From assembly GCA_029260755.1 (NCBI GenBank), contig JAJDCQ010000059.1, forward strand, positions 1 to 64,000: 64,000 nt of DNA. The letters run 5' to 3'. This document shows, piece by piece, positions 1-19,610 of this stretch; the stretch's first letter is position 1; every line of letters begins with the position of its first letter. A program made the position numbers and the translations under genes. The notes below the pieces were generated by a model, which saw only the letters and a program-made list of their open reading frames with translations, did not search any database and was not told the DNA's origin. This stretch comes from Planctomycetota bacterium (lineage in GTDB: Bacteria > Planctomycetota > J058 > JAJDCQ01).

Positions 1-3
1 GGG

Positions 4-172
4 AACCGCGGATTACGCGGATTACGCGGAATGCGAGTTGCCGGCGCGCAGTTCATTGCCGACGCCTGCGCTCCCGTTCCAGGAACAGGAGTCTCGGGCG
101 GAGCACCGCGACGCGTCGGCAATGCCTCGGCGACGCCCGAACCAATCCGCGCGATCCGCGAAATCCGCGGTT
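4..172. repeat. Palindromic element A, arms of 9-bp CGCGGATTA units
   Basis: The left arm (4-31) is built from CGCGGATTA-type units. The right arm (145-172) is its imperfect reverse complement, about 25 of 28 positions. Inside, CATTGCCGACGC (54-65) pairs exactly with GCGTCGGCAATG (113-124), and GTTCC-A-GGAAC lies near the centre (76-86), so the whole 169 bp can fold as one nested hairpin. It may extend past the window edge. No coding sequence is supported here: the short ORFs across it are by-products of the repeat. Bases 173-267 hold no gene either; they contain a REP-like motif copy at 212-233. Confidence 0.75.
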
Positions 173-211
173 AGATCTCCTGTCGGCGTTGAATCAGTGG
201 GAACCGTGGAT

Positions 212-233
212 TTCACACGAGAGGGGCCAGGTC
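212..233. repeat. Copy of the TTCACAC...AGGGGCCAGGTC motif
   Basis: This 22-bp sequence closely matches 9956-9977 beside another palindromic element. The shared core is TTCACAC followed by AGGGGCCAGGTC. A shorter third match is at about 9977-9995. It is non-coding and sits just downstream of palindrome A. Confidence 0.5.
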
Positions 234-267
234 TCGGTGCGAAGATCCGGATGCCCGGGACCCGAAG

Positions 268-2028
268 TCAGCCGCCGTGATGCACGGGCAACGGCGCGGT
301 CGTCAGGCACCGGAACGCGGCGCCCGCGGCGGCGAGCCGGACGGCCGGGTCGGCGTCGGCGAGGCCTCGGGCGATCGCGACCGCGGCCGAGGCGGGCTCG
401 AGGTGCCGGGCGGCCGCGGCGGCCTGGGCGCGGGCGATCGGGTCGCGCTCGCCGAGGACGCCGAGCAGCTCCGCGCCGGCGGCGCGTTCGCCCGCGGCGA
501 CGAGGGCTGCGAGGATCGATGCGCGATGCCGGGGCTGGGTCGTCGCCCGGGCCCGAGCCCGGAGCCGCTCGACATCGCCCGAGGCGCCGAGGAGGGCGAG
601 GGTCCGCTCCGCCCGCTCGATCACCGAGCTCGCCCACGGGAGGTCGTCGGCGCGCGGCCCTCCCCCGAGACGCGCAAGCGCGGCCAGGGTCGAGCGCGCG
701 TCCTCGTCGGCGCGACGGGCCAACGCGTCGACCGCCTCGAGGCGCACGAAGGCCGAGGCGTCGCCGAGGGCGGTCTCGATGCGAGCGCGCTCGGCGTCCG
801 GCTCGTCGCGGACGCTCCGGAGGAGGGCGGCCGTCGCGGCCGCGCGCACGATCGGCTCGGCGTCGGCGGCGAGCGACTCGAGCGCCTCGCGAGCGCGTTC
901 CCCGGCGACGCCATCCCGCGCTCCGAGCGGCGCGAGCGCGCCGGCGGCGGCGACCCGCGTCGCGATCGGCGGCGCGGTCGCGGCCCGCTCGACGGCGGTG
1001 AGGAGCCATCTCGGAATCGCCGGCGATGTCCCGGGCGGCGTCCGGTTCGCCGAGGCGAGGAGCTCCTCGGGCCAGCGCTCGGGGGTCGCCCGACCATCCG
1101 CGGCGCGCCGGGCGAGCCAGAGGATCGCCGCGGTCGGCCCGCTCTCGGCATCATCGGCCTCGAGCTCGTCGATGAGCGCTCCGAGCGGCGCGACCTCGCC
1201 GTGCCGGGCGAGCGCCCACGCGACGGCGGCCCGGGCGACCGGGTCGTCTTCCTCCGCGAGGCGAACGTGGAGCGCCGTCCGGGTCTCGGGCCCGCCCTGA
1301 TCGGCGGCATCGCCGAGCGCGCGGGCGGCGGCGGCGCGGACGCCGGCGGCGCGATCGCGGAGCGCCCAGCGCAGCGGCATCGCGGCGGGGCTGCCGAGGT
1401 CGCCGAGCCGGGCGCAGGCGGCGCCGCGGACGCGCTCGTCGTCGTCGTGAAGGAGGACGCGGCGCAGCGCCGGAAGATGATCGGGCGAGCTCGGGAGGCG
1501 GCCGAGGCACGCGACGGCGAGCCGCCGAACCTCGGGCAGCGGATCGTCGAGGGCGGCGAGGACGAGCGCCTCGGGGGCGGTCCGCCCGGCGTCGTGGAGG
1601 GCGCGTGCCGCGCGCAGGCGCGCCTCGGCGTCGCCGCCGCCGAGGGCGTCGGCAACCGTGGCGAGGGCGACCTCGCGGGTGAGCGGCGCGACGAGCGCGT
1701 CGGGCAGGCCGCCGAGGCCGCCGGCCGCGCGGACGGGGTCTCCGGCGAGAATCGACGCGCGGACGAGGACGGCGCGAGCCCGGGCGAGCACGGCCGGGGC
1801 GACCTCGGGGTCGGCGGCGAGAGCGGCCGCGTCGACCAGGATCGCCGGCGCCTCGTCTCGGCTCCGTTCCTCGGCGAGACGCCGCTCGAGGTCGGTGACC
1901 GTTCCGACCGGGCTGGCGCACCCGCCCGCGAGCCCGAGGGCGACGGCGCCCGCGAGGACTCCGATCCGTCCCCATCGTCCCCGACGGGGAGGGCGTGGCG
2001 TCGTCGACGCGTCGCGGGGATCGGTCAT
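268..2028 (-). CDS. HEAT-repeat lipoprotein
   Basis: This is a 586-residue protein with a basic N-terminus, a hydrophobic stretch and a lipobox ending in Cys37 (LAGGC), so it is probably a lipoprotein. From about residue 130 to the end it is built of Ala/Leu/Arg-rich helical repeats (DPLPEVRRLAVACLG, DERVRGAACARLG, DPAVRLAAAGAAF), typical of HEAT/armadillo-like scaffolds. No catalytic motif is seen. The ATG at 2028 is preferred over the longer frame to 2076 because it places the signal sequence near the N-terminus. It lies 172 bp downstream of the tetraheme protein on the same strand, with a possible promoter of its own. The binding partner is unknown. Confidence 0.85.
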   Translation of the reverse strand: MTDPRDASTTPRPPRRGRWGRIGVLAGAVALGLAGGCASPVGTVTDLERRLAEERSRDEAPAILVDAAALAADPEVAPAVLARARAVLVRASILAGDPVRAAGGLGGLPDALVAPLTREVALATVADALGGGDAEARLRAARALHDAGRTAPEALVLAALDDPLPEVRRLAVACLGRLPSSPDHLPALRRVLLHDDDERVRGAACARLGDLGSPAAMPLRWALRDRAAGVRAAAARALGDAADQGGPETRTALHVRLAEEDDPVARAAVAWALARHGEVAPLGALIDELEADDAESGPTAAILWLARRAADGRATPERWPEELLASANRTPPGTSPAIPRWLLTAVERAATAPPIATRVAAAGALAPLGARDGVAGERAREALESLAADAEPIVRAAATAALLRSVRDEPDAERARIETALGDASAFVRLEAVDALARRADEDARSTLAALARLGGGPRADDLPWASSVIERAERTLALLGASGDVERLRARARATTQPRHRASILAALVAAGERAAGAELLGVLGERDPIARAQAAAAARHLEPASAAVAIARGLADADPAVRLAAAGAAFRCLTTAPLPVHHGG

Positions 2029-2082
2029 GGCTCGCTCCGGAGACCGGGGCTCTCGTTCCTTCCTCGAGGGGAGCACGCCCTC

Positions 2083-2110
2083 ATTGTGACCTCGGCGGCG
2101 CGGGACTCAA
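2083..2110 (-). promoter_or_regulatory. Possible sigma70-type promoter for the HEAT lipoprotein
   Basis: On the minus strand, TTGAGT (2110-2105) and CACAAT (2088-2083) are separated by 16 bp, 55 bp upstream of the ATG at 2028. Both boxes are imperfect, so this is a weak call. Confidence 0.3.
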
Positions 2111-2200
2111 GAGCGGCGTCGGCGTCATCGTCGTGACCCGTTCGCGCAGAAGGGCTCACGGTCTTGCGGACCGTCGCCGAGCGCCGGCTCGCGGGGGGGC

Positions 2201-3679
2201 TCAGCGCCGCCGCTTCCAGTGACGGATCGTCTCCATGTAGCGATCGAAGTCGAACGCGGGGCTGTTGTCGGCGTCGTGGCACTGCTCGCACCGCGCCTTC
2301 CAGTGATGGCGCTCGCGCATCCGGCCGAACCCGGCCTCGGGCTTCATCGCGTGCACGCTGCCGACGCCGTGACACATCTCGCACCCCATGCTGGCGAGGT
2401 GGGGGTCCTCGGCCGGCGTGCGCAGCCCGCTCTCGAACCGGTAGCCGGTCGTGTGGCACTCGAGGCACTCGGGGGCGCGGGCGCGCTTGGGGTCCTTCTC
2501 CTCCATGGCGGTGAACGCGCGGGCGTGCTTCTGCTTCTTCCAGATGTCGTACTGCCATCGGTGGCACCCCGAGCATGCGTCGGACCCGATGAACTTGCCT
2601 CCGCTCTCGACCGGGGGGCGCTCGAGGCCGGCGCCGCCGATCGCCGTCGCCTCGGCCCAGAAGCGGTCGAGGATCGACCGCACCGCGCGGTCGTCGGGGA
2701 TCGACGCGCGCATGAGGGACCCCGCCCGGGCGACGGCCCGAAGCGGACCGTCGTCCGCCGCCGGCTCGAGGCCGACCTCGACGACCCGCTTGCCCTTGTC
2801 GCCGGTGCCGAGGACGAGCCCGCCGTCCGCGAGGGCGATCGGGGCGTCGGGGTTCTCGACGCCGTGCCCGGCGATGGTGAGGAGGATCGTCGGGGCGCCG
2901 TCGACCGCCTGGGCGGCGACGCGCTTGGCGACCGCGGCCGCCTCGTCGAGGTCGCCGTGAAAGAGGAGGATGGCGGGCGCGTCGCCCGCCGTGGCGAGCG
3001 CCGCGGCGATCGCGTCGGCAGGCTCGAGCCACTGCAGCGCGGGGTCGCTCTCGACGGCCGGGCGGAGCGAGGCGCCGATGGCCGCGGTGATCGTGAGCCG
3101 GGGGCCCTCGCCCGGCGCGCGCCAGCGGACGACCCGGGCGAACGGAAAGCGCGCGTCGCCCTCGACGCCCCGATGCGCGACGTTCGCGGCGAGCAGCGGG
3201 ACGCCGGTGGCCGCGCCGAGCTCCGCGAGCTTCGCGGCGCCGAGGCGGAGGTCGAGGTCGCCGACCGCGACGGCCGCGCAGCCGGTCGTCGCGAGCGCCT
3301 CGAGGGCGGTGCGCGCCTCGAGCTCGAGGAGGGCGGGGGCGAGCACCTTCGGACCGGTGAGGTCGCCGGTGTCGAGGTGGAGGACCCCCTCGACGCCGGT
3401 CCGATCGAGCCGCTCACGAAGTCGAGCGATCCAGGATGCGCGCCGCGCGAGGCCGCCGACCTGGCCCTCGCTGCAGCCGCACGGCTCGAGCCATCCGCGG
3501 AGCTCACCGCTCGCCACGACGACGACCGAGGCCTGCTCCTTCGCACCGTCCGCGACGCCGTCGCCGGCCTCGGCGCGGGGGCGGACGGCGAGCACGCCGG
3601 CGCCGGCGGTCGTCGCGATCGCGGCGAGCGCGAGGCCGGCGACGACCCGGCCGGGGCGACCGGTGGGGACCGCGTTCAC
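2201..3679 (-). CDS. UshA-like protein with tetraheme cytochrome c C-terminus
   Basis: This 492-residue exported protein has an N-terminal hydrophobic segment at about residues 10-32. The middle contains an EPCGCSEGQ.GGLARR motif (Cys67, Cys69) and DTGD, resembling the 5'-nucleotidase/UshA-like metallophosphoesterase-derived families seen in planctomycetes and deltaproteobacteria. The last 130 residues carry four CxxCH heme-binding motifs (Cys369, 405, 433 and 464), as in cytochrome c554-type proteins. It probably acts in periplasmic electron transfer; the substrate is unknown. The GTG start at 3679 overlaps the TGA of the DUF1573 gene (GTGA), so the two are translationally coupled. Confidence 0.8.
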   Translation of the reverse strand: MNAVPTGRPGRVVAGLALAAIATTAGAGVLAVRPRAEAGDGVADGAKEQASVVVVASGELRGWLEPCGCSEGQVGGLARRASWIARLRERLDRTGVEGVLHLDTGDLTGPKVLAPALLELEARTALEALATTGCAAVAVGDLDLRLGAAKLAELGAATGVPLLAANVAHRGVEGDARFPFARVVRWRAPGEGPRLTITAAIGASLRPAVESDPALQWLEPADAIAAALATAGDAPAILLFHGDLDEAAAVAKRVAAQAVDGAPTILLTIAGHGVENPDAPIALADGGLVLGTGDKGKRVVEVGLEPAADDGPLRAVARAGSLMRASIPDDRAVRSILDRFWAEATAIGGAGLERPPVESGGKFIGSDACSGCHRWQYDIWKKQKHARAFTAMEEKDPKRARAPECLECHTTGYRFESGLRTPAEDPHLASMGCEMCHGVGSVHAMKPEAGFGRMRERHHWKARCEQCHDADNSPAFDFDRYMETIRHWKRRR

Positions 3680-5133
3680 CTTCCGTCGCCGCCGCTTCCG
3701 CCGCTGCTCCCGGCGCCGGCGGGCGCGCGCGGGGCGATCACCCGGACGGGGAGGCGGACGGTCTCCTCGCCGGCCACGTCGGTCCCGATCAGGACGGCCG
3801 CGTCGCCCGGCTTCGCGTCGGCCGGCGCGGTCACGCGGAACGTGAACGAGACCACGGGCGCGCTGCGGTCCCCGTCGCCTTCGGCCACGCCGCACGCCTG
3901 GCCGCGGAGCGACGCGATCTTCACCTTCTCCCCGTCATCGCGACGCACCGTGATCGGAGCGGAGGTCTTGCCCGCCTCGACGACCACACCGGGCGGGTCG
4001 AGCTGGACGAGGCCGTCGATGATCCCGAAGACGGGCACCTCGATCAGCGGCTGACTCGGATCGGTCGTGAACAGGCGCAGGGTGGCCGTGAACGGGCCCG
4101 GCGGCGCGTCCTTCTTGACGCGGACCGTCGCCTCGAAGCGGCGGCGGTCGATCACCTCGACGAGGTCGACCTCGAGGAGCGCGTTCGCGTCGGTCTCGCC
4201 GGGGCCGACGATCTGGATCGTCTCGATGCCGAGGAGCGGCTTCTGGTCCGGGCGCTCGATCACGATCGCCCGCTCCTTGCCCTCGCCGCGTCGAACGCGC
4301 TGGAGCTCGAGGATCTCGGGCGCCCAGATGACCTCGCCGGTGAGCGTCGCGATCACCGGCACGTTCACGACCGGCTGCTTGGGGTGATCGGTCGTGACCC
4401 GCAGCACCTCGTTCACCAACCCTGGCGGCGCGTCGGATGAGAGCCGGACCGTCAGCTCGATGGCGGGGCGCGCTCCGGCCTCGGTCTTCACCGGGGCGCT
4501 CGTCGCGGTGATCCACGACCGGGGCGTCTCGATCCCCTTCACCGTGAACGTCCTGGTCTTCTTGTCGGCGAGGACGATCCGGACCTTCCGCTCGAGCTCC
4601 GCGCCGCGGACGGTCGCCCCGAAGTAGGCGGCGCCCGGGACGACGTTCCAGAGCGACACGATCTCGGCGCCGATCCGGACCGCGCTCACGTACTGGCCGT
4701 AGTCCTTCTCGCGCGGATCGTTGGTGTAGAGGTAGACGCGGATGTCCTGGTAGCCGATCTTGTCCTTGCTGTCGAAGACGATCCCGATCGTGCCCGCCTC
4801 GCCGGCGGCGAGCGTCTTCTTCGAGGTGAGCACCGCCGTGCAGCCGCACGTCGTCTTGATCTTCTTGATGTCGAGCGGCGCATCGCCCTCGTTCCGGAAC
4901 GCGATCGAGAGCTCGCGCTTCTCGCCCTGGTAGAGCGAGCCGAGGTCGTAGGTCTTCTCGTCGAACTTGATCCGAGGATGAGGCCCCGGGGGAACCTCGC
5001 CGTCGCGGGGCAGGCCGGGCACGCCGACGGGCGGGCGGTCGCCCTGAGCGCTCGCGGGCGCGGCGCCCAGGAGGACGACGAGGGGAAGGACGACGGCGAC
5101 GGCCGTGGCGGCGACGGTCGATCGAGGGGTCAT
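3676..5133 (-). CDS. DUF1573 (ASH/HYDIN-like) exported protein
   Basis: This 485-residue protein has a signal peptide (about residues 1-29, ending ASAQ). The first domain is a clear DUF1573 unit: YDLGSLYQGEK, FRNEGDAPLDI, TTCGCTAV and the GIVFDS segment. Further beta-rich repeats with TTDHPKQP and TTDPSQP motifs follow, so about three Ig-like ASH domains are present. These domains commonly occur in exported proteins of Bacteroidetes and Planctomycetes; their function is unknown. The ATG at 5133 is chosen because GGAGGAG precedes it by about 7 bp and the signal peptide follows. It forms a coupled pair with the tetraheme protein. Confidence 0.85.
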   Translation of the reverse strand: MTPRSTVAATAVAVVLPLVVLLGAAPASAQGDRPPVGVPGLPRDGEVPPGPHPRIKFDEKTYDLGSLYQGEKRELSIAFRNEGDAPLDIKKIKTTCGCTAVLTSKKTLAAGEAGTIGIVFDSKDKIGYQDIRVYLYTNDPREKDYGQYVSAVRIGAEIVSLWNVVPGAAYFGATVRGAELERKVRIVLADKKTRTFTVKGIETPRSWITATSAPVKTEAGARPAIELTVRLSSDAPPGLVNEVLRVTTDHPKQPVVNVPVIATLTGEVIWAPEILELQRVRRGEGKERAIVIERPDQKPLLGIETIQIVGPGETDANALLEVDLVEVIDRRRFEATVRVKKDAPPGPFTATLRLFTTDPSQPLIEVPVFGIIDGLVQLDPPGVVVEAGKTSAPITVRRDDGEKVKIASLRGQACGVAEGDGDRSAPVVSFTFRVTAPADAKPGDAAVLIGTDVAGEETVRLPVRVIAPRAPAGAGSSGGSGGDGR

Positions 5134-5433
5134 CGGGCGCTCCTCCGGGGGGCGAGCCGGGCCGCGAGCTCGAGGGTGCGATGGGGCGAGTTCGGTCGGT
5201 GTCGGGTCTGGATGATACTCGGCCAGGCGGGCGCGGGGAAGCGCACCTCGTTCAGGATGATGACGATGCGAACCGCGCCCGCCCTGCGGGTGGCCGTGAG
5301 CAACGTCGCCGGATCCCGTCTCATCACTACGGAGATGGATGATGGCGAGCGCCGGGGCGGACCCGTCCGCGGGCGCGCCAAACCACGACCATTCCGATGG
5401 ATCCAGGCGCGGGGGCCGACGGCTCCGGCTCGT
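5134..5433. other. Divergent intergenic region
   Basis: About 425 bp separate the divergent genes starting at 5133 and 5559. On the minus strand a TATCAT -10-like box (5217-5212) could serve the DUF1573 gene, but its -35 region is poor. Apart from that and the plus-strand promoter at 5434-5462, no gene, RNA or repeat was recognised. Confidence 0.35.
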
Positions 5434-5462
5434 TTGATGTTCCCGGAGCGGACCGCTAGAAT
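5434..5462 (+). promoter_or_regulatory. Sigma70-type promoter for the four-TM protein
   Basis: TTGATG (5434-5439) and TAGAAT (5457-5462) are separated by exactly 17 bp. The predicted transcription start is near 5469, giving a leader of about 90 nt before the ATG at 5559. Confidence 0.6.
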
Positions 5463-5558
5463 GCGCCGCTCTTCTGCCGCGGGCGGCCCGCGAGGCGAGA
5501 TTCGGCGCGGGATTCCGCGCCATCGACGTCTCGAGCCGAGCCCGCCGAGGAGATTCCG

Positions 5559-6419
5559 ATGGCCGACGAAGGCGCCCCCCAGCCCGAGACTCCGCCCGCC
5601 GCGCCTACGCCGGCGCCGGCGGCTTCGCCCGCGCCCGCCGGGGGCGCCGAGTCGCTCCATCCGGTCAATCAGGCCGGGATCCTCAAGGAGGACGAGGCGC
5701 CGCACAAGGTCATCATCCGGCCCTACCCGAGCATCATCTATCTCTATCCGACCATCCTGGTCGCGCTCGTCTGCGGCCTCGGCTCGCTGTTCACGATGGA
5801 CTCGGTCAACCTCGGCGACGGAAGCGTCAAGCTGCCGAGCGGGATCGAGACGAGCACCGTCTACCCGATCGAGGCGCAGGCGTCGCTCTTCGGGCTGCTC
5901 TTCATCGGAGTGCTCGCGTTCAACCTGAGCGTCCTCGCGTTCGACTTCACCCGCGCGGCGTTCGTCGCCCTGATCTTCTTCTTCGCCTTCATCGGCGTCG
6001 GCGGCTGGCTCCTCGAGAGCCAGACCGGGGCGATCACCAAGCTCGCGGGGATCGTCGGCAGCTTCCACTTCTACGCGAACCCGCAGTTCTACTTCGGCGT
6101 CTTCGTGATCCTGTCCCTGATCTTCGGGGGGGTCTTCATCCAGACGCGGTTCGACTACTGGGAGCTCCAGCACAACGAGCTTCTGCATCACCGGGGTCTC
6201 GTCGGCGACGTGGAGCGCTTCAGCGCCCACTACGTGCGGTGGACGAAGGAGATCCCGGACGTGTTCGAATACTGCCTCCTCCTCTCGGGCCGGCTCGTGC
6301 TCTACGTCCGGGAGCGAGAGAAGCCGATCGTTCTGCCGAACGTGCTGAACATCAACCGCCTCGAGCTGCGCATGGCGAAGATCCAGTCGACCATGCACGT
6401 CAAGGTGGACACCCACTAG
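5559..6419 (+). CDS. Four-TM protein with PH-like C-terminal domain
   Basis: This 286-residue protein starts with a Pro/Ala-rich cytoplasmic tail of about 45 residues. Four hydrophobic helices follow (about 58-80, 107-130, 132-152 and 177-194). A soluble C-terminus of about 90 residues (DYWELQHNELLHHRG...LVLYVREREKPIVLPNVLNI) resembles bacterial PH-like domains, but that match is tentative. GAGGAG precedes the ATG by about 5 bp. It stands alone, with its own promoter and a palindrome after the stop. The function is not known. Confidence 0.75.
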   Translation: MADEGAPQPETPPAAPTPAPAASPAPAGGAESLHPVNQAGILKEDEAPHKVIIRPYPSIIYLYPTILVALVCGLGSLFTMDSVNLGDGSVKLPSGIETSTVYPIEAQASLFGLLFIGVLAFNLSVLAFDFTRAAFVALIFFFAFIGVGGWLLESQTGAITKLAGIVGSFHFYANPQFYFGVFVILSLIFGGVFIQTRFDYWELQHNELLHHRGLVGDVERFSAHYVRWTKEIPDVFEYCLLLSGRLVLYVREREKPIVLPNVLNINRLELRMAKIQSTMHVKVDTH

Positions 6420-6429
6420 CAGAGACCTT

Positions 6430-6447
6430 CGGCCGCGCGCGCGGCCG
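6430..6447. terminator. GC-only perfect palindrome downstream of the four-TM gene
   Basis: An 18-bp perfect palindrome (CGGCCGCG/CGCGGCCG) starts 11 bp after the TAG stop. It could act as an intrinsic terminator, but no T-tract follows. The rest of 6420-6619 shows further GC-rich dyads and the sucC ribosome-binding site, but no clear promoter. Confidence 0.35.
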
Positions 6448-6619
6448 TGCAAAAGTCGTAAGAGAGAAACACTGAGGGGACGCCGGCCGGCAGGAAGGCC
6501 GACGTCCGTGTCGCGGCCGGCGGGTCGGTTGATCGACCCGCGGGGCGTGATCGTGCGTCCTCACCGAGTCTTCGGGGACGAGAGTCCCTTCGAGGGATCG
6601 CAGTCAAGGGGAGCTGTTC

Positions 6620-7774
<1,155 letters not shown>

Positions 7775-7785
7775 GAGAGACCCAG

Positions 7786-8664
<879 letters not shown>

Positions 8665-8702
8665 TCGCCCGACCGGTAGCAAACGACTCAACTGGTAGCG
8701 AC

Positions 8703-8727
8703 CCGCCCGGGCGATCCGCCCGGGCGG
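8703..8727. terminator. Strong hairpin between sucD and mdh
   Basis: CCGCCCGGGCG (8703-8713) and CGCCCGGGCGG (8717-8727) pair perfectly around a 3-nt loop, 38 bp after the sucD stop. No T-run follows. It may terminate or attenuate readthrough from sucCD into mdh, or protect the upstream mRNA from 3' decay. Confidence 0.5.
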
Positions 8728-8779
8728 CGTCGTGTCCGACCATCGAACAATCAACGCTCGATCGAGCAGGAGAACCCAG

Positions 8780-9766: not shown

Positions 9767-9797
9767 CGAGCGCCTCTTCGCACGCAGATCGCAGGAC

Positions 9798-9823
9798 GGG
9801 GCGCGTCGTCTTCGGCGCGCCCC
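9798..9823. terminator. GC-rich hairpin after mdh
   Basis: GGGGCGCG (9798-9805) pairs with CGCGCCCC (9816-9823) around a 10-nt loop, 32 bp after the mdh stop. It is a plausible terminator, though no T-tract is seen. Confidence 0.45.
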
Positions 9824-9880
9824 GCTGCGATGATGGGGATGTCACCACGGAGACACGGAGAACACGGAGGATCTTCTGCA
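9824..9880. repeat. Half copy (left arm) of palindromic element B
   Basis: GCTGCGATGATGGGGATG followed by three CACGGAG-type units repeats the left flank and arm found at 10054-10097. No matching right arm is seen nearby, so this looks like a truncated copy, separated from the complete one by a REP-like palindrome. Confidence 0.65.
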
Positions 9881-9938
9881 TCGCGCCGTCCGCCTGGGAT
9901 TCCAGGGGGATTCTTGGTGTGAGTCCTGGTGTGAATCC

Positions 9939-10043
9939 AGGGGTCAGGTCCAGGATTCACACCGAAGGGGCCAGGTCACACCAGAGGGGCCAGTTCAGCT
10001 ACTGCGACAGATTCGCTCGTGTGATTCCTGGACCTGACCCCTT
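9939..10043. repeat. REP-like palindrome with GGGGTCAGGTCC core
   Basis: The 24-bp left arm (9939-9962) and right arm (10019-10043) are near-perfect reverse complements, with core GGGGTCAGGTCCAGGA and outer TCACAC. The 56-bp loop carries two AGGGGCCAG motif copies. Sequences of this kind are known companions of REP-associated IS200/IS605-like tyrosine transposases (RAYT); no such transposase is in this window. The 9767-10300 stretch holds no gene. Confidence 0.65.
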
Positions 10044-10053
10044 CGATTCACGC

Positions 10054-10251
10054 GCTGCGATGATGGGATGAACCACGGAGGCACGGAGACACGGAGGATC
10101 TCCGGAGCGAGCGCCGAGCGCGCTTCTTCGCTCGCGGGGCAGTAGGCGACGGAGACCTCTTCTCCGGGCGTTCCAGCTGCGCTGAGACTCTGGCGCGTTC
10201 TCCGAAGCTCCTCCGTGTCTCCGTGCCTCCGTGCCTCCGTGGTTCCATCCC
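10054..10251. repeat. Palindromic element B, arms of 8-bp CACGGAGN units
   Basis: The left arm (about 10065-10107) is GGGATGAACCACGGAGG followed by further CACGGAG units and ending TCCGGAG. The right arm (10200-10251) is its reverse complement, with one extra 8-bp unit. Smaller dyads lie in the loop (for example GCGAGCG/CGCTCGC). The element is non-coding; frames crossing it are repeat artefacts. It ends 50 bp before the serA promoter. Confidence 0.75.
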
Positions 10252-10300
10252 TCGCCGAAGGCGAACCTGCTGCCGTCCCGCCGTTGATCCGACCGGGGGC

Positions 10301-10329
10301 TTTACGGGCGGCTGATCGTCGCGTAATCT
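10301..10329 (+). promoter_or_regulatory. Sigma70-type promoter for serA
   Basis: TTTACG (10301-10306) and TAATCT (10324-10329) are separated by 17 bp. The predicted start is near 10336, giving a leader of about 40 nt containing GAGGA before the ATG at 10377. Confidence 0.55.
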
Positions 10330-10376
10330 CGGCGCCTTCGCAGGGTCTCCAGACCCGCCTCGAGGATCCTCCTCCC

Positions 10377-11972
10377 ATGGCCATCGCGCGCGTTCTCATC
10401 TCCGATCCGGTCGCCGACGAGTGCGTCGCGCTGCTCCGCGATGCGGTCGGGATCGAGCCCGACTACCGTCCGAAGCTGCCGCCGGCCGAGCTGCTCGCCT
10501 GCATCGGGGACTACGACGGGCTGATCGTCCGGAGCGGCACCCAGGTGACGGCCGACGTGATCGGTGCGGGCGAGAAGCTGCGCGTGGTCGCGCGGGCGGG
10601 CGTCGGGGTCGACAACGTCGACGTCGATGCGGCGACCCGCCGCGGCGTCCTCGTGATGAACGCGCCCGAGGGCAACACGGTCAGCGCCGCCGAGCATGCG
10701 ATCGCGCTCATGTTCGCCGCCGCGCGGCACATCGCGGCGGCCGACGCTTCGACCCGGGCGGGGAAGTGGGAGCGGGGCAAGTTCCTCGGCACCCAGCTCA
10801 CCGGCAAGACGCTCGGCCTCCTCGGGCTCGGTCGGGTCGGCCGCGAGGTGGCGAAGCGGGCCCGCGGTCTCGAGATGGACGTCGTCGCGTCCGACCCGAT
10901 GGTGAGCGAGGAGCAGGCGCGGCGCTGGGAGGTCGAGCTCGCGCCGCCCGACGAGGTCATCGCTCGGGCGGATGTCCTGAGCGTCCACGTCCCGTTGACC
11001 GACCGCACCCGCGGGCTCGTCGGGGCGGCCGAGATGGCCCGGATGAAGCCGGGCGCGATCATCGTGAACGCCGCCCGGGGCGGCGTCGTCGACGAGGCCG
11101 CCCTCGCGGCGGCGCTGGCCGAGGGGAAGGTCGCCGCGGCGGGCATCGACGTCTACGCCGAGGAGCCGCCGCCGGGCGACAACCCCGTCCTCACCTCGCC
11201 GCACACGTCGTTGACGCCGCACCTCGGGGCGAGCACGCGCGAGGCGCAGGAGCTCGTCGGCGTCCTGACCGCCCGCCAGGTCGTCGGCTATCTCCGGGAC
11301 GGGTCGATCGTGAACGCGGTCAACATGTTCCGGATCGACCCGAAGGTGGCGGCGCGGATCGCGCCGTGGCAGGACCTCGGCGAGAAGCTCGGGAGCCTCC
11401 AGGCGCAGCTCCTTCACGGCGCGATCGAGCGGATCGAGATCACGACGGCGGGCGACGCGCTCGACGACGAGAGCAAGCCGATCCTGGCGCGCGCCGTTCT
11501 GACCGGGTTCTTCCGCCACTTCCTCGAGGCGCCGGTCAACTACGTCAACGTGGCGCACTTCGCTCGCGAGAAGGGGATCCGCCTCGTCGAGAGCGCCGAG
11601 GACGATGCCCGCGGCTTCCGCGACCTGCTGACCGTCGAGGTGACGACGAGCAAGGGGAGCCGGCGGCTCGCCGGCACCATCTTCGGCGAGCGTCGCCCGC
11701 GGATCGTCTTCGTCGACGACTACATGGCCGAGGTGCGGCCCGAGGGCCACATGGTCCTCTTCGCGAACGACGACACGCCGGGGATCATGGGCATGGCGGG
11801 GTCGCTCCTCGGGAAGAACGGCGTGAACATCGCCTACATGTCGATGGGTCGCGACGCCGAGGGCGGGACGGCCCTGGCGGTCCTCGGGATCGACGGGCCG
11901 ATGCCCGACGCGGTCCTCGAGAAGCTCGCGGCGAGCAAGGGCATCGTGTGGGCGCGTCGGGTGGCCCTCTAG
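10377..11972 (+). CDS. serA: D-3-phosphoglycerate dehydrogenase (long type)
   Basis: This 531-residue protein catalyses the first step of serine synthesis from 3-phosphoglycerate. The catalytic region runs to about residue 315, with the NAD loop [13 protein letters not shown], the AARGGVVDE arginine block and the [14 protein letters not shown] histidine block. An intervening (ASB-type) domain and a C-terminal ACT domain ([15 protein letters not shown]...[10 protein letters not shown]) follow. This matches the long, mycobacterial/Bacillus-type SerA, which can be regulated by serine through the ACT domain. The ATG at 10377 is preferred over the frame starting at 10215, because upstream codons run through repeat B and the promoter. 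Confidence 0.97.
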
Positions 11973-12009
11973 AGGCCAGCGACGGGTAACGACGCATCGG
12001 AGGCGAACG

Positions 12010-12567
12010 ATGGGCCTGAAGTCCGACCGCTGGATCCGCGAGCAGGCGCTCGCGCACCGGATGATCGATCCGTTCAACGACGGCCAGGTCGCCGAGGGCT
12101 GCATCTCGTACGGCCTCTCGTCTTACGGCTACGACCTCCGGGTCGCCGACGAGTACAAGATCTTCACGAACGTGAACTCGAGCCTCGTCGACCCGAAGAA
12201 GTTCGACGCGAAGAGCTTCGTCGACTTCAAGGGCCCCGAGTGCATCATCCCGCCGAACAGCTTCGCCCTCGCCCGCTCGGTCGAGTTCCTGCGGATCCCC
12301 CGGAACGTGTTGACCGTCTGCCTCTCGAAGTCGACCTACGCCCGCTGCGGCATGATCGTGAACGTCACGCCGTTCGAGCCGGGCTGGGAGGGGTTCGTCA
12401 CCCTCGAGATCTCGAACACGACCCCGCTCCCGGCGAAGATCTACAGCGACGAGGGGATCTGCCAGGTCCTCTTCTTCGAGGGTGACGAGCCCTGCGAGGT
12501 GAGCTACGCCGACCGCAAGGGCAAGTATCAGAACCAGCCGGCCCTGATCACCCTCCCGAAGGTCTGA
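12010..12567 (+). CDS. dcd: dCTP deaminase
   Basis: This 185-residue protein is close to the usual Dcd length. It shows [13 protein letters not shown] near the N-terminus and the central active-site block [20 protein letters not shown]...LEISNTT, with the catalytic glutamate in LEISN. It deaminates dCTP to dUTP (or dUMP in bifunctional members; the sequence alone does not decide), supplying dTTP synthesis. GGAGGCGA precedes the ATG by a few bases. It lies 37 bp after serA and may share its transcript. Confidence 0.95.
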
Positions 12568-12608
12568 GTCGCCTCGTCCGTCCCCGACGCGATCGCGTAG
12601 AGTCGGGT

Positions 12609-13577
12609 ATGGGAGAGCCCGCGCCTGCGCCCGCACTCAGCCCGCCGGCATCGGGGCGCCGTCGCCTCCGTAACGCGACGGCCGTCGCCGTCGTCGCCTG
12701 CGCCATCGCCGCGGTCGCGGGGCTCACTCGACCGCCGGCCCGAGCTCGTCTCTACGCCGCGATCGCCGAGCACGGCCCCGAGTCGGTCGGCATCCGCGCC
12801 GTCTCCTGGATCCACGGCCTCGGCGATGACGGAGTCCCGGCGCTGATCGAGCTCGCGATCCGGGACGCGGACGTCACCGCCGAGCTCGCCGCGGCGGCTC
12901 CTCGAGGGATCATCACCATCGATGAGATTCCCGAGGACCCGGTGGCGGAGGAGGCGTTCCGGCTCCTCTCGCCGCAGCTCCCCGATGCCGTCCCTCACCT
13001 GGCCGAGGCCCTCGCGTCGAGCCCTTCAGAGTGGCGCCGCGCGGAGATCACCACGCTCATCGTCACCTGGATCCTCGCCCGAGGAAGCGACGGACCGTCG
13101 CCGTCGGTCGCCGATGATCCGGCGGCACGGATCACCGCGGAGGCACTCGCGCGGGCGATCGCGACCGATCCGTCCCCCGGCGTGCGCAGCGCGGCGGTCA
13201 ACGCCCTCTCGCTGTGGACGTTCGAGAATCGGGTCGACGCGGCATGGTTCTCGGCCTGCTGGGACGCCCTCGTCATCGCGGCCGGCCCCGATCAGCCGAG
13301 CTCGATCCGCGACGATGCCTCCATGCTGATGACCACGGTCGTGCACGAGAACACGGACGCGGCCGCCGCCGCGCCGGAGGTCGCCGCGAGTGCCGATCGC
13401 GTGCTCCGTCTCCTCGCCGAGGCGACGCCCCACTCCATGCTGCGCCGGGTCCTGCCCGAGCGCGCCGCGATCTTCGGGGACGCCCTCCGGCCGGCGCTCG
13501 AGGCCGCGGCAGCCGACCCCGATGCGGAGGTTCGTCGCGTCGCTGCCGAGTTGCTCGACGAGCTCGAGGGCCACTGA
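12609..13577 (+). CDS. Membrane-anchored HEAT-like repeat protein
   Basis: This 322-residue protein has a basic N-terminus and one hydrophobic segment (about residues 23-42), a signal anchor. The rest is helical and Ala/Leu-rich, with HEAT-like units (DDGVPALIELAIRDADV, PSPGVRSAAVNALSLW, DAEVRRVAAELLDEL). No catalytic motif was seen. The ATG is preceded by TAGAGT only 5 bp upstream and has no clear Shine-Dalgarno sequence, so a leaderless mRNA is possible. It is related in style to the HEAT lipoprotein at 268-2028. Confidence 0.75.
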   Translation: MGEPAPAPALSPPASGRRRLRNATAVAVVACAIAAVAGLTRPPARARLYAAIAEHGPESVGIRAVSWIHGLGDDGVPALIELAIRDADVTAELAAAAPRGIITIDEIPEDPVAEEAFRLLSPQLPDAVPHLAEALASSPSEWRRAEITTLIVTWILARGSDGPSPSVADDPAARITAEALARAIATDPSPGVRSAAVNALSLWTFENRVDAAWFSACWDALVIAAGPDQPSSIRDDASMLMTTVVHENTDAAAAAPEVAASADRVLRLLAEATPHSMLRRVLPERAAIFGDALRPALEAAAADPDAEVRRVAAELLDELEGH

Positions 13578-13788
13578 CCGGCGAGGGGGCCGTGTCATTG
13601 CCGCGGCGCGCTACGGAAGAAGATGCGTTCCGGTTCGTCCCGCATGACCCCCATCGGAGCGGAACGCGGGCCGGAAACCCTCTCTGACCCGTGCTTTCCG
13701 GACCGGCGGCCTCTCTACCTCGTGGAACGAGCTTTGCGTTTCCCTCGATCGGCCGAAGGAGCGGCCAGCGAGAGAGAGAGAGAACGTC

Positions 13789-16269
13789 ATGTCGTCGCAC
13801 CGCACCGCTTCCGCGGGTCTTCTGGTCGTCCTGACCGTCGCCGCCTTCGCCGCCCCCGAGATCGCCCGTGCCGAGCCCGCCGAGATGGCCGGGCGCTGGA
13901 CGATCGCCGGCAAGTCCGCCGACGGAGCGGACTACGCGGCGACGCTGAAGCTCGATGGCGAGCGGCGCTCGCTCAGCGTCCGGCTCGAGCTCGACCATCC
14001 CGAGCACGGCGGAGTCTGGCTCGGCAAGGGCATCCAGGACCACGGCCAGCTCTGGTTCTCCGTCCGTCCCGAGCACGAGGCGGCGCGAGGCGCGCGCGGC
14101 GCGCTCGCCGGCGAGACCGTCGAGGCGACCGGCGCTCGGATCGAGGGGATCTTCCGCGGCTCGTCGAGCCAGCTCGAGGGCGAGACCGTCCTGATCGACG
14201 CGGCCGAGCAGCGTCATCCGATCGGCGCAGAGACGGCGACGCGCCCGGTCGATGCCGAGGCCATCGACGTCGACTCCTCGGAGAGCCCCGACGCCGCGCC
14301 GGCTGACGCCGCCGCCGACGCCGCCGTCGACGACGACGTCGGAGCGATCCGTGAGGTCGGTCGTCACCTCCTCGCCCTCGCCAAGACCGAGCTCCGCGAG
14401 GAGGCCGTCGACGGGGTCGATCTCGAGCACCGCTTCCGCGTGAGCGACTACTTCCACATCGGCGCCTCCACCGGCGTGCGCCTGATCGACGCGCCCGACG
14501 CCGACCAGCGCCTGACCGACGCCCGCGAGGGCGACCGCGGATTCTGGGCGGCCACCTCGGTCGCGGGCGGCCCCCGCGTTCCGCTGACCACCATCATCCC
14601 GCTCGGCGAGGCGACGATCTCGGCCGGCTTCACGACGGGCGCCCGCCTCACCTACGAGGTGACCGATCGCTACCGGATCCCCGACGGCGTCGCCGGCCCC
14701 GACGGTGCGCTCGAGCAGCTCCGGACGGCCTCGTCCCGGACGTTCGACCTGCCGCTGACCGCCGCCGACGCGCTCGCCATGAATGTGGGCGCGAAGCGGG
14801 TCATGGAGGGCGAGGGCACGGTCGCCCTCAACGGCAGCATCTCGATCGGCACCGACCTGACCGACCTGGGCGGCGACGTCGCCCGGATCGGCGCGTCGGC
14901 CCGGGTCGGCGGCTTCTACCGGATCCGCGGTCACGTGCGGTTGAAGGTCGTGCGCCTCGACGGGACCGAGGTGGCGGTCCGCTTCACCCGCGGGCGGAGC
15001 CGGACGCGCGGCGGCTCGGCCGATCTGTTCCTCGGCCTCTTCGTCGACCGGAACGTCCTCGCCGACGAGATCGCTCCCGAGATCGAGTACATCGACATCC
15101 TGACCGATGAGATCGCCGATGAGATCGCCGATCAGGTCGAGGATGTCGTCCGCTTCCGTCTGGCCTTCGGCGGCGAGGCGAGCCGGCGGAGCCAGTTCGA
15201 CATCACCTACCGGTTCGACCTCTCCGATCCGGCCGCCGCCGCGGCCTACGAGCGGGCGATCCGCGGCGACCTGCGCGCCGCCGACGAGGCGACGGCCGCT
15301 CCGTCGGTCACCGAGGAGCTCCGGATCCTCCTCGACGAGGAGCGCTTCCACCGGTTCGCGAACCTCGACGTGAGCGTGATCCGGGCGAGCCGGTCGCGCA
15401 CCGCGACGGCGACCGACGTCTCGGTCGAGGAGGAGCTGCGCGGCGCGAGCCGGTTCCAGATCTTCCGCTACGAGCGTCACGGCCGGAGCCTCGTCGGGAG
15501 CGATCAGCGCCTGCTCCTCGAGGTCGTCCACGCGCGCACCCCCGAGCACGACGCCGCGGGCCTCCCGCCCGAGGCTCGCGAGCGGGCGCTCCGCTTCCGG
15601 TGGTCGATCGACGACGCGTTCTCGACCTCGGGCGACGTCCGCCGCTTCATCGACTGGATCGACCGGGTCGACCTTCCCGGCGGCGCCGAGGCGACCGCCC
15701 GGGTTCGCGAGAGCTGGCCCGATCGGAACATCTTCCAGCGGATCGGCGGGGGTCGATTCGGCCGGACGACGCGCGAGATCGGGATCGACGTCACCGAGGA
15801 GGGGCTGAAGCGCATCCTCGAGGTCGACGACGGCGCGACGCTGCTCCAGGCCTACGCCGCCGCGTTCGCGCGGATCGAGGGCGACATCCCGCTCTGGGCG
15901 AGCGCCGAGGGGCGCGAGGTCGTCGACGACTGGGACCGCTTCGGCGACTCGTCGGTGCAGAACGACCCCGACCTCGACCGCGCGGTCACCGAGCTCCGCC
16001 GGGCGCGCGGCTTCGTGAAGGACGTCCGCCGGCTCGTCGAGGTCGACGAGCACGACGACGATGCCCGCGCCGAGCGGCTGACCGAGCTCGCCGACGGGAT
16101 GGGCTTCCGCCTCCACGGGATCGCCGCGTTGGCCGCCCTCGCGCCGCGCGACACCCTGAGGACCCGGGTCGGGCTCTCGGGCGAGCACGTCGCCGGCGGC
16201 GGCTTCACGGCCGGCTTCACCGGCGAGCGGTTCCGTCCTCTGGAGGTCCGGATCCCCGAGGGTCGCTGA
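13789..16269 (+). CDS. Large exported protein of unknown function
   Basis: This 826-residue protein has a signal peptide (about residues 1-28, ending ARAEP). Residues 30-130 (MAGRWTIAGKSADGADYAATLKLDG...) look like a small beta-rich domain that recurs in secreted proteins measuring excess over a substrate. An acidic Ala/Asp linker follows at about 150-185, then a long mixed region. A short Asp/Glu/Ile repeat (TDEIADEIADQVED) lies near residue 440. I do not recognise a family for the main body. GAGAGAGAGAG precedes the ATG. The last 53 bp overlap the convergent pseudokinase gene. Confidence 0.75.
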   Translation: MSSHRTASAGLLVVLTVAAFAAPEIARAEPAEMAGRWTIAGKSADGADYAATLKLDGERRSLSVRLELDHPEHGGVWLGKGIQDHGQLWFSVRPEHEAARGARGALAGETVEATGARIEGIFRGSSSQLEGETVLIDAAEQRHPIGAETATRPVDAEAIDVDSSESPDAAPADAAADAAVDDDVGAIREVGRHLLALAKTELREEAVDGVDLEHRFRVSDYFHIGASTGVRLIDAPDADQRLTDAREGDRGFWAATSVAGGPRVPLTTIIPLGEATISAGFTTGARLTYEVTDRYRIPDGVAGPDGALEQLRTASSRTFDLPLTAADALAMNVGAKRVMEGEGTVALNGSISIGTDLTDLGGDVARIGASARVGGFYRIRGHVRLKVVRLDGTEVAVRFTRGRSRTRGGSADLFLGLFVDRNVLADEIAPEIEYIDILTDEIADEIADQVEDVVRFRLAFGGEASRRSQFDITYRFDLSDPAAAAAYERAIRGDLRAADEATAAPSVTEELRILLDEERFHRFANLDVSVIRASRSRTATATDVSVEEELRGASRFQIFRYERHGRSLVGSDQRLLLEVVHARTPEHDAAGLPPEARERALRFRWSIDDAFSTSGDVRRFIDWIDRVDLPGGAEATARVRESWPDRNIFQRIGGGRFGRTTREIGIDVTEEGLKRILEVDDGATLLQAYAAAFARIEGDIPLWASAEGREVVDDWDRFGDSSVQNDPDLDRAVTELRRARGFVKDVRRLVEVDEHDDDARAERLTELADGMGFRLHGIAALAALAPRDTLRTRVGLSGEHVAGGGFTAGFTGERFRPLEVRIPEGR

Positions 16270-17209
16270 GCCGGGCGCGCTGCCCGAGGATCCAGAACAC
16301 GATCAGGACGAGGCCGACGGCCGTCGTCGCGGACGGTGCGATCAGGCGCGCCGGGCCGACCCCGGGGTCGAGCAGGCTGGTGACGAGCCAGACGGCGCTC
16401 GCGAGCGTCGTCGCGCCGAGGACGGCGAGGACGGTCGCGGTCGCCGCCGCGCCCGGAGCGGCGTCGGGCGCCGGCCCGGACCCCGGAGATGAGGCTGGCG
16501 CCGACCGCTCGGGCGCGCCGCCGCCGAGGACCCCGCCGTCGGCGAACGCCGGAGGGATCCCCGCCATCCGGCCGTCGCCGCTCATGACGACCGCGGACAC
16601 CGGAGGGGGGACCGGGCGGGCGAGCTCCTCGGCCGTCGGCTCGGTCGGGCTCCGGCCGAGCTCGCGCGCGCTCTCGTCGCCGGGCTTCTCGGTGAGCGCC
16701 CGGCGGAGCTCGGCCAGGGCGACGCCGGCGTCCGCCCAACGGTCCCCGGGGGCCTCGACGAGGCTGCCGGCGACCAGGCGGTCGAGCGCGACCGGAACGT
16801 TCGTCCCCCGGCCGCCGAGGAGGACGCCCGGCGCGAGCCGCTCGAGCGTCGGCGGCGCGCCGCAGACCGCCTCGTGGATCACGTGCCCGAACGCCCAGAT
16901 GTCGGCCGTCACCGTCCTCGGACCGCCGCGGACGACCTCGGGCGCGCGGGCGTCGAGGTGGTCGGGCGTGGCGGGCTCGGCGAGCGGAGGAGCGTCGTCG
17001 GCAGGCAGGAGACCGGCGTCGGCGAGCGAGGACCCGATGAGGATCGCCTCGGCCGAGATGGCGCCGTGGGGCTGGCCGCTCGCGTGGAGCTCGGCCAGGG
17101 CGCGCAGGACCGCCTCCCCGAGGGCGAGCGCCTCATCGGGCTCGAGCCGCCGCCCGATCCGGCCGTCGAGCGCCCGGCGCAGCGACCTCCGCGGCGTCGA
17201 TCCCGTCAT
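16217..17209 (-). CDS. Truncated Ser/Thr kinase-like protein (pseudokinase), membrane-bound
   Basis: This 330-residue protein begins directly in a kinase C-lobe. The catalytic loop position reads HGAISAEAIL (48-57) instead of HRDxKxxN. There is no glycine loop, no catalytic lysine and no DFG. APE (89-91) and DIWAFGHVIHEAVCG (103-117, helix F) are retained. A Pro/Ala-rich linker and two hydrophobic helices (about 255-275 and 288-310) follow. It is therefore predicted to be catalytically dead and membrane-anchored, perhaps a binding or scaffolding partner. It is convergent with, and overlaps by 53 bp, the large exported protein gene. The function is inferred only. Confidence 0.75.
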   Translation of the reverse strand: MTGSTPRRSLRRALDGRIGRRLEPDEALALGEAVLRALAELHASGQPHGAISAEAILIGSSLADAGLLPADDAPPLAEPATPDHLDARAPEVVRGGPRTVTADIWAFGHVIHEAVCGAPPTLERLAPGVLLGGRGTNVPVALDRLVAGSLVEAPGDRWADAGVALAELRRALTEKPGDESARELGRSPTEPTAEELARPVPPPVSAVVMSGDGRMAGIPPAFADGGVLGGGAPERSAPASSPGSGPAPDAAPGAAATATVLAVLGATTLASAVWLVTSLLDPGVGPARLIAPSATTAVGLVLIVFWILGQRARLSDPRGSGPPEDGTARR

Positions 17210-17224
17210 GGCGTCTCGTTTCCG

Positions 17225-17262
17225 GCCCGACCTGGGCCCGACCTGGGCCCGACCCGGGCCCG
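17225..17262. repeat. 11-bp tandem repeat upstream of the pseudokinase
   Basis: Three and a half copies of GCCCGACCTGG (the last with a substitution) lie immediately 5' of the pseudokinase start codon on the minus strand. They may reflect slippage or form part of its leader. Confidence 0.6.
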
Positions 17263-17461
17263 AGCCGATGCCGATCTTCGGCGCGGTCTCCGCGGTGTCA
17301 AGCGAGATCGGCCCCGGCGCTCGGGCGGCGAGGGCGCGCGGGTTGCGCCCGGATCGGCGTCACTGATACGCTCGCGCCGATCCCGAAGGACGGCCGGGGC
17401 GTCGTCGTCGGAGAGACAGACTGCGCAGGGCGCAGGAAAAAACGACCGACAGGAGGCTCGA

Positions 17462-18166
17462 ATGAAGACGTTCATCCGGAGCGCGCTGGCGCTCCTCATC
17501 GCGGCCGGCGTCGCCACCGGCGTCGCCGTCGGAACCGGCCGCGCGGCCGACGACGACGGCAAGGGGAAGCCGGCCCAGGGCCTCGACGCGGCGGGCGCCC
17601 TCAAGCGTCTCACCGACGGCAACGCCCGGTACGTCAGTCACAAGGAGAAGCACCCCCACCTCGACGAGCATCGCCTCAAGGAGGTCGCCAAGGGCCAGCA
17701 CCCCTACGCGACGATCCTCACCTGCGCGGACTCGCGCGTCTCGCCCGAGCTGATGTTCGACGAGGGCCTCGGCGATCTCTTCGTGATCCGCGTCGCGGGC
17801 AACGTCGTCGACGACGTGGTCCTCGGCAGCATCGAGTACGGCGCCGCCCATCTCCACACGCCGGTCATCATGGTCCTCGGCCACGAGCGCTGCGGCGCCG
17901 TCGGCGCGGCCGTGAAGAACGTCGTCGAGCCGGGCCACATCAGCTCGCTCGTCACCCGGATCCTCCCCGCCGTCCGCGCGGCGAAGAAGCAGGAGGGCGA
18001 CCTCGTCGAGAACAGCGTCCGGGCGAACGTCGAGCTCGTCGTGGGGCAGATCAAGGCGGCCGAGCCGGTCATCGCCGAGCTCGTCCTCGCGGGCAAGTGC
18101 AAGGTCGTCGGCGCCCGGTACGACCTCGATGACGGGAGCGTCACGATCGACCCGTTCGACGAGTAG
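17462..18166 (+). CDS. Exported beta-class carbonic anhydrase
   Basis: This 234-residue protein has a signal peptide (about residues 1-28). Zinc ligands are visible as CADSRV (Cys and Asp-Arg dyad) and GHERCGAV (His and Cys); FVIRVAGNV and GSIEYGAAHL complete the beta-CA fold. It interconverts CO2 and bicarbonate, here probably in the periplasm. AGGAGG lies about 6 bp before the ATG at 17462; longer in-frame extensions cross the pseudokinase leader. A perfect terminator follows, so it is a single-gene unit. Confidence 0.95.
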   Translation: MKTFIRSALALLIAAGVATGVAVGTGRAADDDGKGKPAQGLDAAGALKRLTDGNARYVSHKEKHPHLDEHRLKEVAKGQHPYATILTCADSRVSPELMFDEGLGDLFVIRVAGNVVDDVVLGSIEYGAAHLHTPVIMVLGHERCGAVGAAVKNVVEPGHISSLVTRILPAVRAAKKQEGDLVENSVRANVELVVGQIKAAEPVIAELVLAGKCKVVGARYDLDDGSVTIDPFDE

Positions 18167-18194
18167 TCGACCCGGACCGATCGAGAGCTGCACC

Positions 18195-18225
18195 GAAGGC
18201 CTCGCCCCCACCGGGCGAGGCCTTC
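18195..18225 (+). terminator. Intrinsic terminator after carbonic anhydrase
   Basis: GAAGGCCTCGCCC (18195-18207) pairs perfectly with GGGCGAGGCCTTC (18213-18225) around CCACC. This 13-bp stem lies 28 bp after the stop and is followed by TCTCGT. Confidence 0.8.
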
Positions 18226-18254
18226 TCTCGTCCGGGGCGATGGATGATGGTCGT

Positions 18255-18563
18255 GATGGCAGCGATGTCGGCTTCGCCGACGAGTTCTCACGCCAAGGCC
18301 GCCAAGGCGCCAAGGGCGCCAAGAGTTCCCCTCGGGTCGACGTCGCGGCGCTTGCCAGCAGAACCTCGCGCAAAGGCGCAAGGGCGCAAAGTCGGCGTGC
18401 AGAGCGAGCTTCGCGATCGGAGCTTTGCGGCTTCGCGCCTTTGCGCGAGATTCCGTCGGACCGAGCCGAGGCTCGGGCGCCCGAAGAAGGACTCTTGGCG
18501 CTCTTTTCCCCTTGGCGCCTTGGCGTGAGGAATCGTCGGCGGAGCCGACATCGCTGCCACATC
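18255..18563. repeat. Nested palindromic element C (CGCCAAGG outer, GCGCAAAG inner)
   Basis: The outer left arm (18255-18326) is GATGGCAGCGATGTCGGC followed by four CGCCAAGG-type units. The outer right arm (18491-18563) is its reverse complement. Inside is a second palindrome built from GCGCAAAGG units (18365-18391 pairing with 18423-18449), centred near 18407. The element is about 309 bp and non-coding; six-frame ORFs across it are artefacts. The whole 18226-18594 stretch has no gene. Confidence 0.8.
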
Positions 18564-18594
18564 CAACGAGCCGCTGACTCATCTCCTCTGGCGG

Positions 18595-19602: not shown

Positions 19603-19610
19603 GCTCGCTC

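Follow-up and report, generated by a model that had tools for sequence, protein, structure and literature searches.

What produces several non-coding palindromes that differ in sequence and yet are built to one plan within the same bacterial contig? The question is raised by the window analysed here, a stretch of 64,000 nucleotides from a Planctomycetota bacterium (assembly GCA_029260755.1, contig JAJDCQ010000059.1, positions 1 to 64,000), in which a first-pass annotation made from the sequence alone had described three palindromic elements (4-172, 10054-10251 and 18255-18563, here called elements 1, 2 and 3). All three were found at these coordinates, and each consists of unit arms that pair as one long hairpin. 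Our analysis indicates that they are probably non-autonomous derivatives, comparable to miniature inverted-repeat transposable elements (MITEs), of palindromic elements that carry a gene of the GxxExxY family, which encodes a putative nuclease.

The arms are tandem arrays of short units, as proposed, with a measured unit length of 7-9 bp instead of the 8-9 bp given before. The claim that the units are unrelated in sequence holds for their visible differences, but it does not hold at a deeper level, since a single degenerate pattern, C-[A/G]-C-N-[A/G]-A-[G/T] (CRCNRAK) plus 1-3 spacer bases, describes all of them. Inverted arms of such 7-bp units, spaced 8-10 bp, are present in all three elements. 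The paired arms are 87% complementary in element 1 (4-33/143-172), 88% in element 2 (10074-10115/10192-10233) and 93% in element 3 (18257-18299/18517-18559), and the latter has an additional, inner pair of GCGCAAAG arms (18346-18391/18423-18468). Folding as RNA gave -98.9, -128.1 and -225.5 kcal/mol for elements 1, 2 and 3 (z = -6.0, -6.9 and -15.5), folding of element 3 as DNA gave z = -16.5, and none of the shuffled controls folded as well as the real elements. The elements are non-coding, as was previously noted, with no GxxExxY remnant in any of the three, and no match to Rfam families was obtained in positions 1-20000 of the window.

The link to the GxxExxY family comes from the source genome (12.26 Mb in 276 contigs), in which only two PF13366/TIGR04256 (GxxExxY) genes were found (E < 1e-34 to TIGR04256). 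One of these, L091, is enclosed by a CACGGAG element whose ends read GGATGTCAC-CACGGAGACACGGAGAACACGGAG, and the other, L092, by a CGCGGATT element whose ends read AACCGCGGATTACGCGGATT and whose arms match those of element 1; the window arms score 24.5 against coding L092, compared to 11 for the reversed null. GxxExxY genes of related genomes (L107, L144, L181 and L236) are bordered by arms of the element 3 type, CGCCAAG and CGCAAAG, and the window arms of this type score 19-20.5 against L107, L144 and L236, with a null of about 13. Ends that match an autonomous element of their own genome are found in elements 1 and 2, and not in element 3. All three kinds of arm are thus found on elements that carry GxxExxY, and three arm families of unrelated appearance share one protein family. 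This supports the earlier suggestion of separate families produced by a common process, the common factor being the GxxExxY nuclease element. None of the window elements encodes the nuclease within its limits, and we therefore class all three as non-autonomous relatives rather than as full members.

Members of the GxxExxY family are present in 71 of 148 related genomes. Among the 91 genes examined in this set, 89 had enough flanking sequence, and the median local inverted-repeat score at these loci was 21, as compared to 10 when flanks were permuted among loci. Scores above the 99th percentile of this control, in which the common unit sequence already raises the values, were obtained for 48 loci, and unit arrays could be seen by eye on both sides of about 80 of the 89. 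A second set of 80 named loci (77 with enough flank) was collected by scanning contigs with 6 proteins, a 22-protein alignment being too diverse. It covers the Acidobacteria, Planctomycetes, Verrucomicrobia, Chloroflexi, Cyanobacteria, Bacteroidetes, Proteobacteria, Elusimicrobiota and other groups, as well as the archaeal Methanothrix, Methanophagales and Methanosarcinales. The median score was here 20.5, against 9.0 for flanks displaced by 900-1200 bp, and 61 of the 77 loci exceeded the maximum of 13.5 in the displaced control. Inverted unit arms are thus found on most of the approximately 170 sampled GxxExxY genes, bacterial and archaeal, with CACAGAG as the consensus unit over the loci. 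Eight plasmid records were obtained; no GxxExxY relative of L091 was found in phage records.

The two arms of an element also change together, so that a lack of co-variation, named in the first-pass annotation as an argument against a defined class, does not apply: 198 same-base changes were counted on both arms, compared to 67 ± 8 with right arms permuted among loci, and the last unit base is the same in the left and right arm at 80 of 81 loci (P = 6e-12). Shuffling the order of units within arms did not lower the co-variation (196.6 ± 2.5 versus 198), which means that whole arrays stay alike rather than individual pairs; a strict one-to-one pairing of corresponding units was rejected for this reason.

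A site in Bacteroides, between radA and a gene for an FAD-dependent protein, provides a view of the arms and the gene as one cassette. The cassette is present in 18 of the sampled loci and absent from 13, and the two genes are 451-560 bp apart with it and 1-80 bp without it. In the filled alleles L335 and L336 and the empty allele L350, both flanking genes are 96-97% identical, whereas the distance from stop to start is 475 bp in the former and 80 bp in the latter. Both arms of the cassettes at this site change jointly among CACAGAG, CACAGAT and CGCAGAT. Placed on the GxxExxY protein tree, unit type requires 1 change, as compared to 5.2 when shuffled (P<0.0002); on the radA tree it requires 5 changes versus 5.2 (P=0.59). 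Across the 77 wider loci, unit type again follows the protein tree (3 changes versus 8.6). Since unit type fits the tree of the nuclease and not that of radA, we conclude that arms and gene form one travelling cassette, uncoupled from the host gene, and that this site was occupied more than once. One Bacteroides metagenome bin (G148, contigs C24 and C37; L328, L331) contains both a filled and an empty site, and is probably a mixture of two species.

The residues D63, E73 and K75 of the GxxExxY protein are invariant, and Q87xxxY91 is found in at least 90% of the sequences, which agrees with the PD-(D/E)XK signature of a D...ExK core followed by QxxxY. The structure was predicted with a pLDDT of 95, and the best matches in the PDB, all of them weak (E > 0.03), were mostly PD-(D/E)XK nucleases; among the matches were the R2 retrotransposon protein, SSO0001, PvuRts1I, the fdxN excision factor and I-Bth0305I, and the Cas4 profile matched marginally. 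We therefore consider GxxExxY to be a putative RecB/Cas4-like PD-(D/E)XK nuclease, with an activity predicted from these features.

How non-coding copies may arise is illustrated by L380, in which the CACGGAG arms are intact and an internal deletion has reduced the GxxExxY gene to residues 3-37 of 116 (E = 3e-11). In one related genome (G085), a coding copy (L161) is found beside arm-only hairpins of about 63 bp with identical arms, and another (G003) contains a 50-bp hairpin that consists of nothing but arms. The window elements are probably further relatives of such copies. Single-copy occurrence, once named as an argument against a defined class of elements, is not what the source genome contains, as the CACGGAG and CGCGGATT families both run to hundreds of copies. 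The CACGGAG unit pair CACGGAGNCACGGAG was counted 331 times on the plus and 326 times on the minus strand (46 and 53 for the reversed-pattern control), the CGCGGATT unit pair CGCGGATTNCGCGGATT 196 and 184 times (control 0 and 0), and the CGCCAAGG unit pair CGCCAAGGCGCCAAG 2 and 5 times (control 0 and 0); the element 3 family thus has few copies, at least three in this genome. Both large families are short, non-coding, high in copy number and dispersed, with terminal inverted repeats, as is characteristic of MITEs.

In 437 kb of the source genome, paired CACGGAG arms have a constant orientation, plus strand on the left and minus strand on the right. A non-coding CACGGAG family of about 310 bp comprises about 40 copies that are 86-96% identical, and the similarity ends sharply at unrelated flanks. 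When target duplications were looked for, CTAG was often found at both ends of these copies, and it may be part of the element; this terminal CTAG (L297-L326) often supplies the TAG stop of the adjoining gene, and where genes converge it sometimes does so on both sides. The CACGGAG copies also have a local 7-3-7 hairpin at each end, with stems that differ between left and right in 13 of the 13 elements that have both, typically CTTCGCC at one end and GCTCGCC at the other. The ends are consequently distinct and conserved locally by compensation, and these self-complementary hairpins rule out the long palindrome as the sole conserved structure of the CACGGAG copies. Outer palindromic layers were found again around different inner palindromes, which suggests a nested insertion of palindromes into hairpin tips. 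For example, CTAGCCCGCAT, which is the outer layer in the 310-bp family, surrounds another palindrome (TATTCACGAGCATC) at L078:4457-4509, as if palindromes enter palindromes.

The full element, of about 450-560 bp, consists of ACC and about three tandem 7-bp CRCNRAK units with 1-3 bp spacers, the GxxExxY open reading frame (ORF) and the inverted array, and arms and nuclease gene together form one cassette, which we take to be mobile. By the mechanism that we consider most likely, the nuclease would recognise its own unit array and cleave either a target or related arms in the DNA, whereupon the element would be copied in during repair, in a homing-like manner. An internal deletion that removes the ORF leaves little more than a short core between the arms, and relics of this kind now number hundreds in the source genome, multiplied presumably by nuclease supplied in trans. 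The elements follow immediately after stop codons and mostly point in the sense direction; in 130 of 164 cases (P = 2e-14; strand judged by the longest open frame, with G+C of up to 60%), the ORF shares the strand of the neighbouring genes. This suggests expression by read-through. The transcript would form a long hairpin that the host may be able to process, as it does rRNA intervening sequences, so that an insertion would be cheap. The union of arms and ORF, the exchange of cassettes at one site, presence and absence, deletion relics and copy number can be read from the genomes themselves; copy number, site polymorphism and the conflict between trees argue in turn for mobility.

Several points weigh against this interpretation. 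Movement itself was not observed, and the empty Bacteroides alleles hold 60-80 bp of other sequence that is missing from the filled alleles, which means that no clean insertion with a target duplication is seen and that some of the differences could represent loss. The source genome has two coding copies as compared to hundreds of non-coding ones, and no coding copy with CGCCAAGG arms was found in it. Moreover, the non-coding copies have end hairpins and outer layers that do not occur in coding L091, and they are therefore not simple deletions of L091 itself. Finally, the fold matches of the nuclease are all weak (best E 0.033).

Some of the data could also be explained by elements that act on the RNA level, like the intervening sequences of rRNA. 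The arms would then form a double-stranded RNA stem excised by RNase III, the nuclease or the arrays would act on RNA, and the element would spread via RNA, by reverse transcription, or by recombination. The strong RNA folds of the window elements, the orientation of the ORFs along with their neighbours, the location between the stop and start codons of operon genes and the analogous case in the 23S rRNA of Coxiella burnetii (PMC4990558) are all consistent with this idea. However, PD-(D/E)XK enzymes usually act on DNA, the element has no reverse transcriptase, and co-orientation may also come from selection for expression or against interference, and we consider an RNA-level explanation to be unlikely. 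That the elements adjoin the 3' ends of genes, with 0 of 20 scored elements between divergent genes in one sample, would similarly fit vertically inherited, non-mobile regulatory hairpins such as terminators or mRNA stabilisers. But hundreds of dispersed, near-identical copies with unrelated flanks, presence and absence among close species and the conflict with the host tree make this scarcely credible.

We also considered whether the palindromes are REP/REPIN-like repeats moved by RAYT (Y1 HUH) transposases, with the GxxExxY genes as passengers. Three RAYT genes were identified in the source genome, and the differing end hairpins of the CACGGAG copies (13/13) resemble the ends of IS200 and REP sequences. 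Yet the RAYT genes lack CGCGGATT and CGCCAAGG arms and have CACGGAG only as an isolated pair at one locus. Two of the three are instead flanked by GGGGYCAGGTC repeats, of the GGGGWSAS type that accompanies RAYT-type transposases (PMC3733652), and unit type tracks the GxxExxY tree, all of which makes passenger genes very improbable. RAYT was rejected as the main mobiliser because its genes in the source genome are flanked by different repeats. We thus favor the hypothesis of non-autonomous derivatives of GxxExxY elements.

Features of the three palindromes and of the adjoining sequence in the window.
Feature	Position	Strand	Evidence or remark
Left arm of element 1, AACC and CGCGGATTA units	4..33	+	26/27 bases same as arms of GxxExxY-coding L092
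Core of element 1, non-coding	34..142	.	No GxxExxY remnant
Right arm of element 1	143..172	-	Complementarity, RNA fold
Additional CACGGAG left arm (GGATGTCAC CACGGAGACACGGAGAACACGGAGGA)	9836..9876	+	Near-identical to coding L091 over 42 bases, score 39.5 (15 for the reversed null)
Left arm of element 2, GATGAAC and 3 CACGGAGN units	10067..10096	+	
Core of element 2, non-coding	10097..10210	.	No GxxExxY remnant; RNA fold
Right arm of element 2, 4 CACGGAGN units and GATGGAAC	10211..10248	-	
Local end hairpin of type CTCGCC-TTC-GGCGAG, outside the arm of element 2	10251..10267	.	Common to many copies
Outermost palindromic layer of element 3, left (TGGCAGCGATGTCGGCTTCGCCGACGA)	18257..18283	+	
Outer left array of element 3, CGCCAAGG units	18291..18323	+	
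Inner left array of element 3, GCGCAAAG units	18368..18391	+	
Inner right array of element 3	18423..18446	-	RNA fold
Outer right array of element 3	18494..18525	-	RNA fold
Outermost layer of element 3, right copy	18533..18559	-	Further copies at L085:8880-9185 and in L383

The additional CACGGAG left arm at 9836-9876 had been missed in the first-pass annotation. Inverted GGGGTCAGGTCCAGGATTCACAC repeats are located between the two CACGGAG arms (9939-9962 and 10019-10042) and also near 220-236, and they fit the GGGGWSAS motif (PMC3733652). Element 1 is found at the very start of its contig (C231), which indicates that the assembly broke within this repeat, and several other contigs of the source genome start or end in such repeats. 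Copies of the CGCGGATT family form tandem runs of about 200 bp with a conserved linker of 27-45 bp (CGGTCTCTCTCGGCGTTGAACC..GTGGG) between them (L082:5680-5890, L068:1-420), and in most copies the centre is the linker and not the core.

A comparable arrangement surrounds another gene family. Four-helix-bundle IVP genes (PF05635/S23) have inverted, strict 7-bp arrays (lag 7) with a median score of 20 versus 10, which suggests that IVP elements are a sister class with a different protein. Free-standing IVP genes outside rRNA in related genomes (L187-L216) have units such as AGTTGTT, GGGTTAG and AGTGGAT, and the IVP genes L094 and L097 of the source genome adjoin long hexamer-like arrays, for instance of CACGGC/CACGGG, and a strong palindrome (GGCCGCGTGGGGCGGCC). 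On a broader scale, the chances seem to us evenly balanced that there is an as yet undescribed superfamily of selfish palindromic elements in bacteria and archaea, in which a RecB/Cas4-like nuclease recognises arms of tandem 7-bp units and spreads, ousting its own kind from fixed sites and leaving hairpin relics scattered over genomes. The IVP/heptamer elements would form a sister class, and the rRNA intervening sequences would be a special case of that sister class. GxxExxY and IVP genes are widespread and often multi-copy, with a function that was previously unassigned, and repeats like CCACAGAGGCACAGAGACACAGAG were previously unexplained. The link between gene and repeat would give the former a likely role, as a selfish nuclease, and the latter an origin. 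A further prediction is that the intervening sequences of rRNA are part of a far larger family of hairpin elements. A practical effect is that such repeats break assemblies.

The components, a MITE and a selfish nuclease element, are known, whereas their combination is apparently undescribed; no description of GxxExxY palindromic elements or of their units was found in the open-access literature searched, in which the GxxExxY family was mentioned by two papers that deal with other subjects. The non-coding copies resemble MITEs such as RUP, NEMIS and Nezha in being 70-300 bp long, with inverted repeats, a high copy number and a location near gene ends. They differ in that the presumed helper is the GxxExxY nuclease instead of a DDE transposase, and in that the arms are arrays of tandem units. 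With REP/REPIN sequences and their RAYT genes, and with TIRtrons (PMC3733652), they share palindromic high-copy repeats, one dedicated gene and local end hairpins, but the protein family and the motifs are different and the RAYT repeats of the source genome are a separate family. Like homing endonuclease genes, the full elements have a nuclease ORF as their sole cargo, are present or absent at the same site and are replaced as cassettes independently of the host gene. Unlike these, they are located outside introns and inteins, have long inverted arms of tandem units and many non-coding derivatives, and homing would be their presumed rather than their observed mode of spread.

Another parallel is the intervening sequence of the 23S rRNA in C. 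burnetii, which has a terminal stem of 28 bp and tandem GACAGAT heptamers before an S23p ORF and is excised by RNase III (PMC4990558). Both are small selfish elements with a long inverted-repeat stem and a small looped ORF beside tandem short repeats. Intervening sequences are tolerated since the transcript is excised, and for the GxxExxY elements a similar processing may be supposed. However, the ORF of the intervening sequences encodes a four-helix-bundle protein and not a nuclease, and those described are located in rRNA helices and have heptamer units, whereas GxxExxY units are spaced 8-10 bp. The window elements themselves, with no Rfam match in positions 1-20000 and no S23p-type ORF, do not qualify as rRNA intervening sequences.

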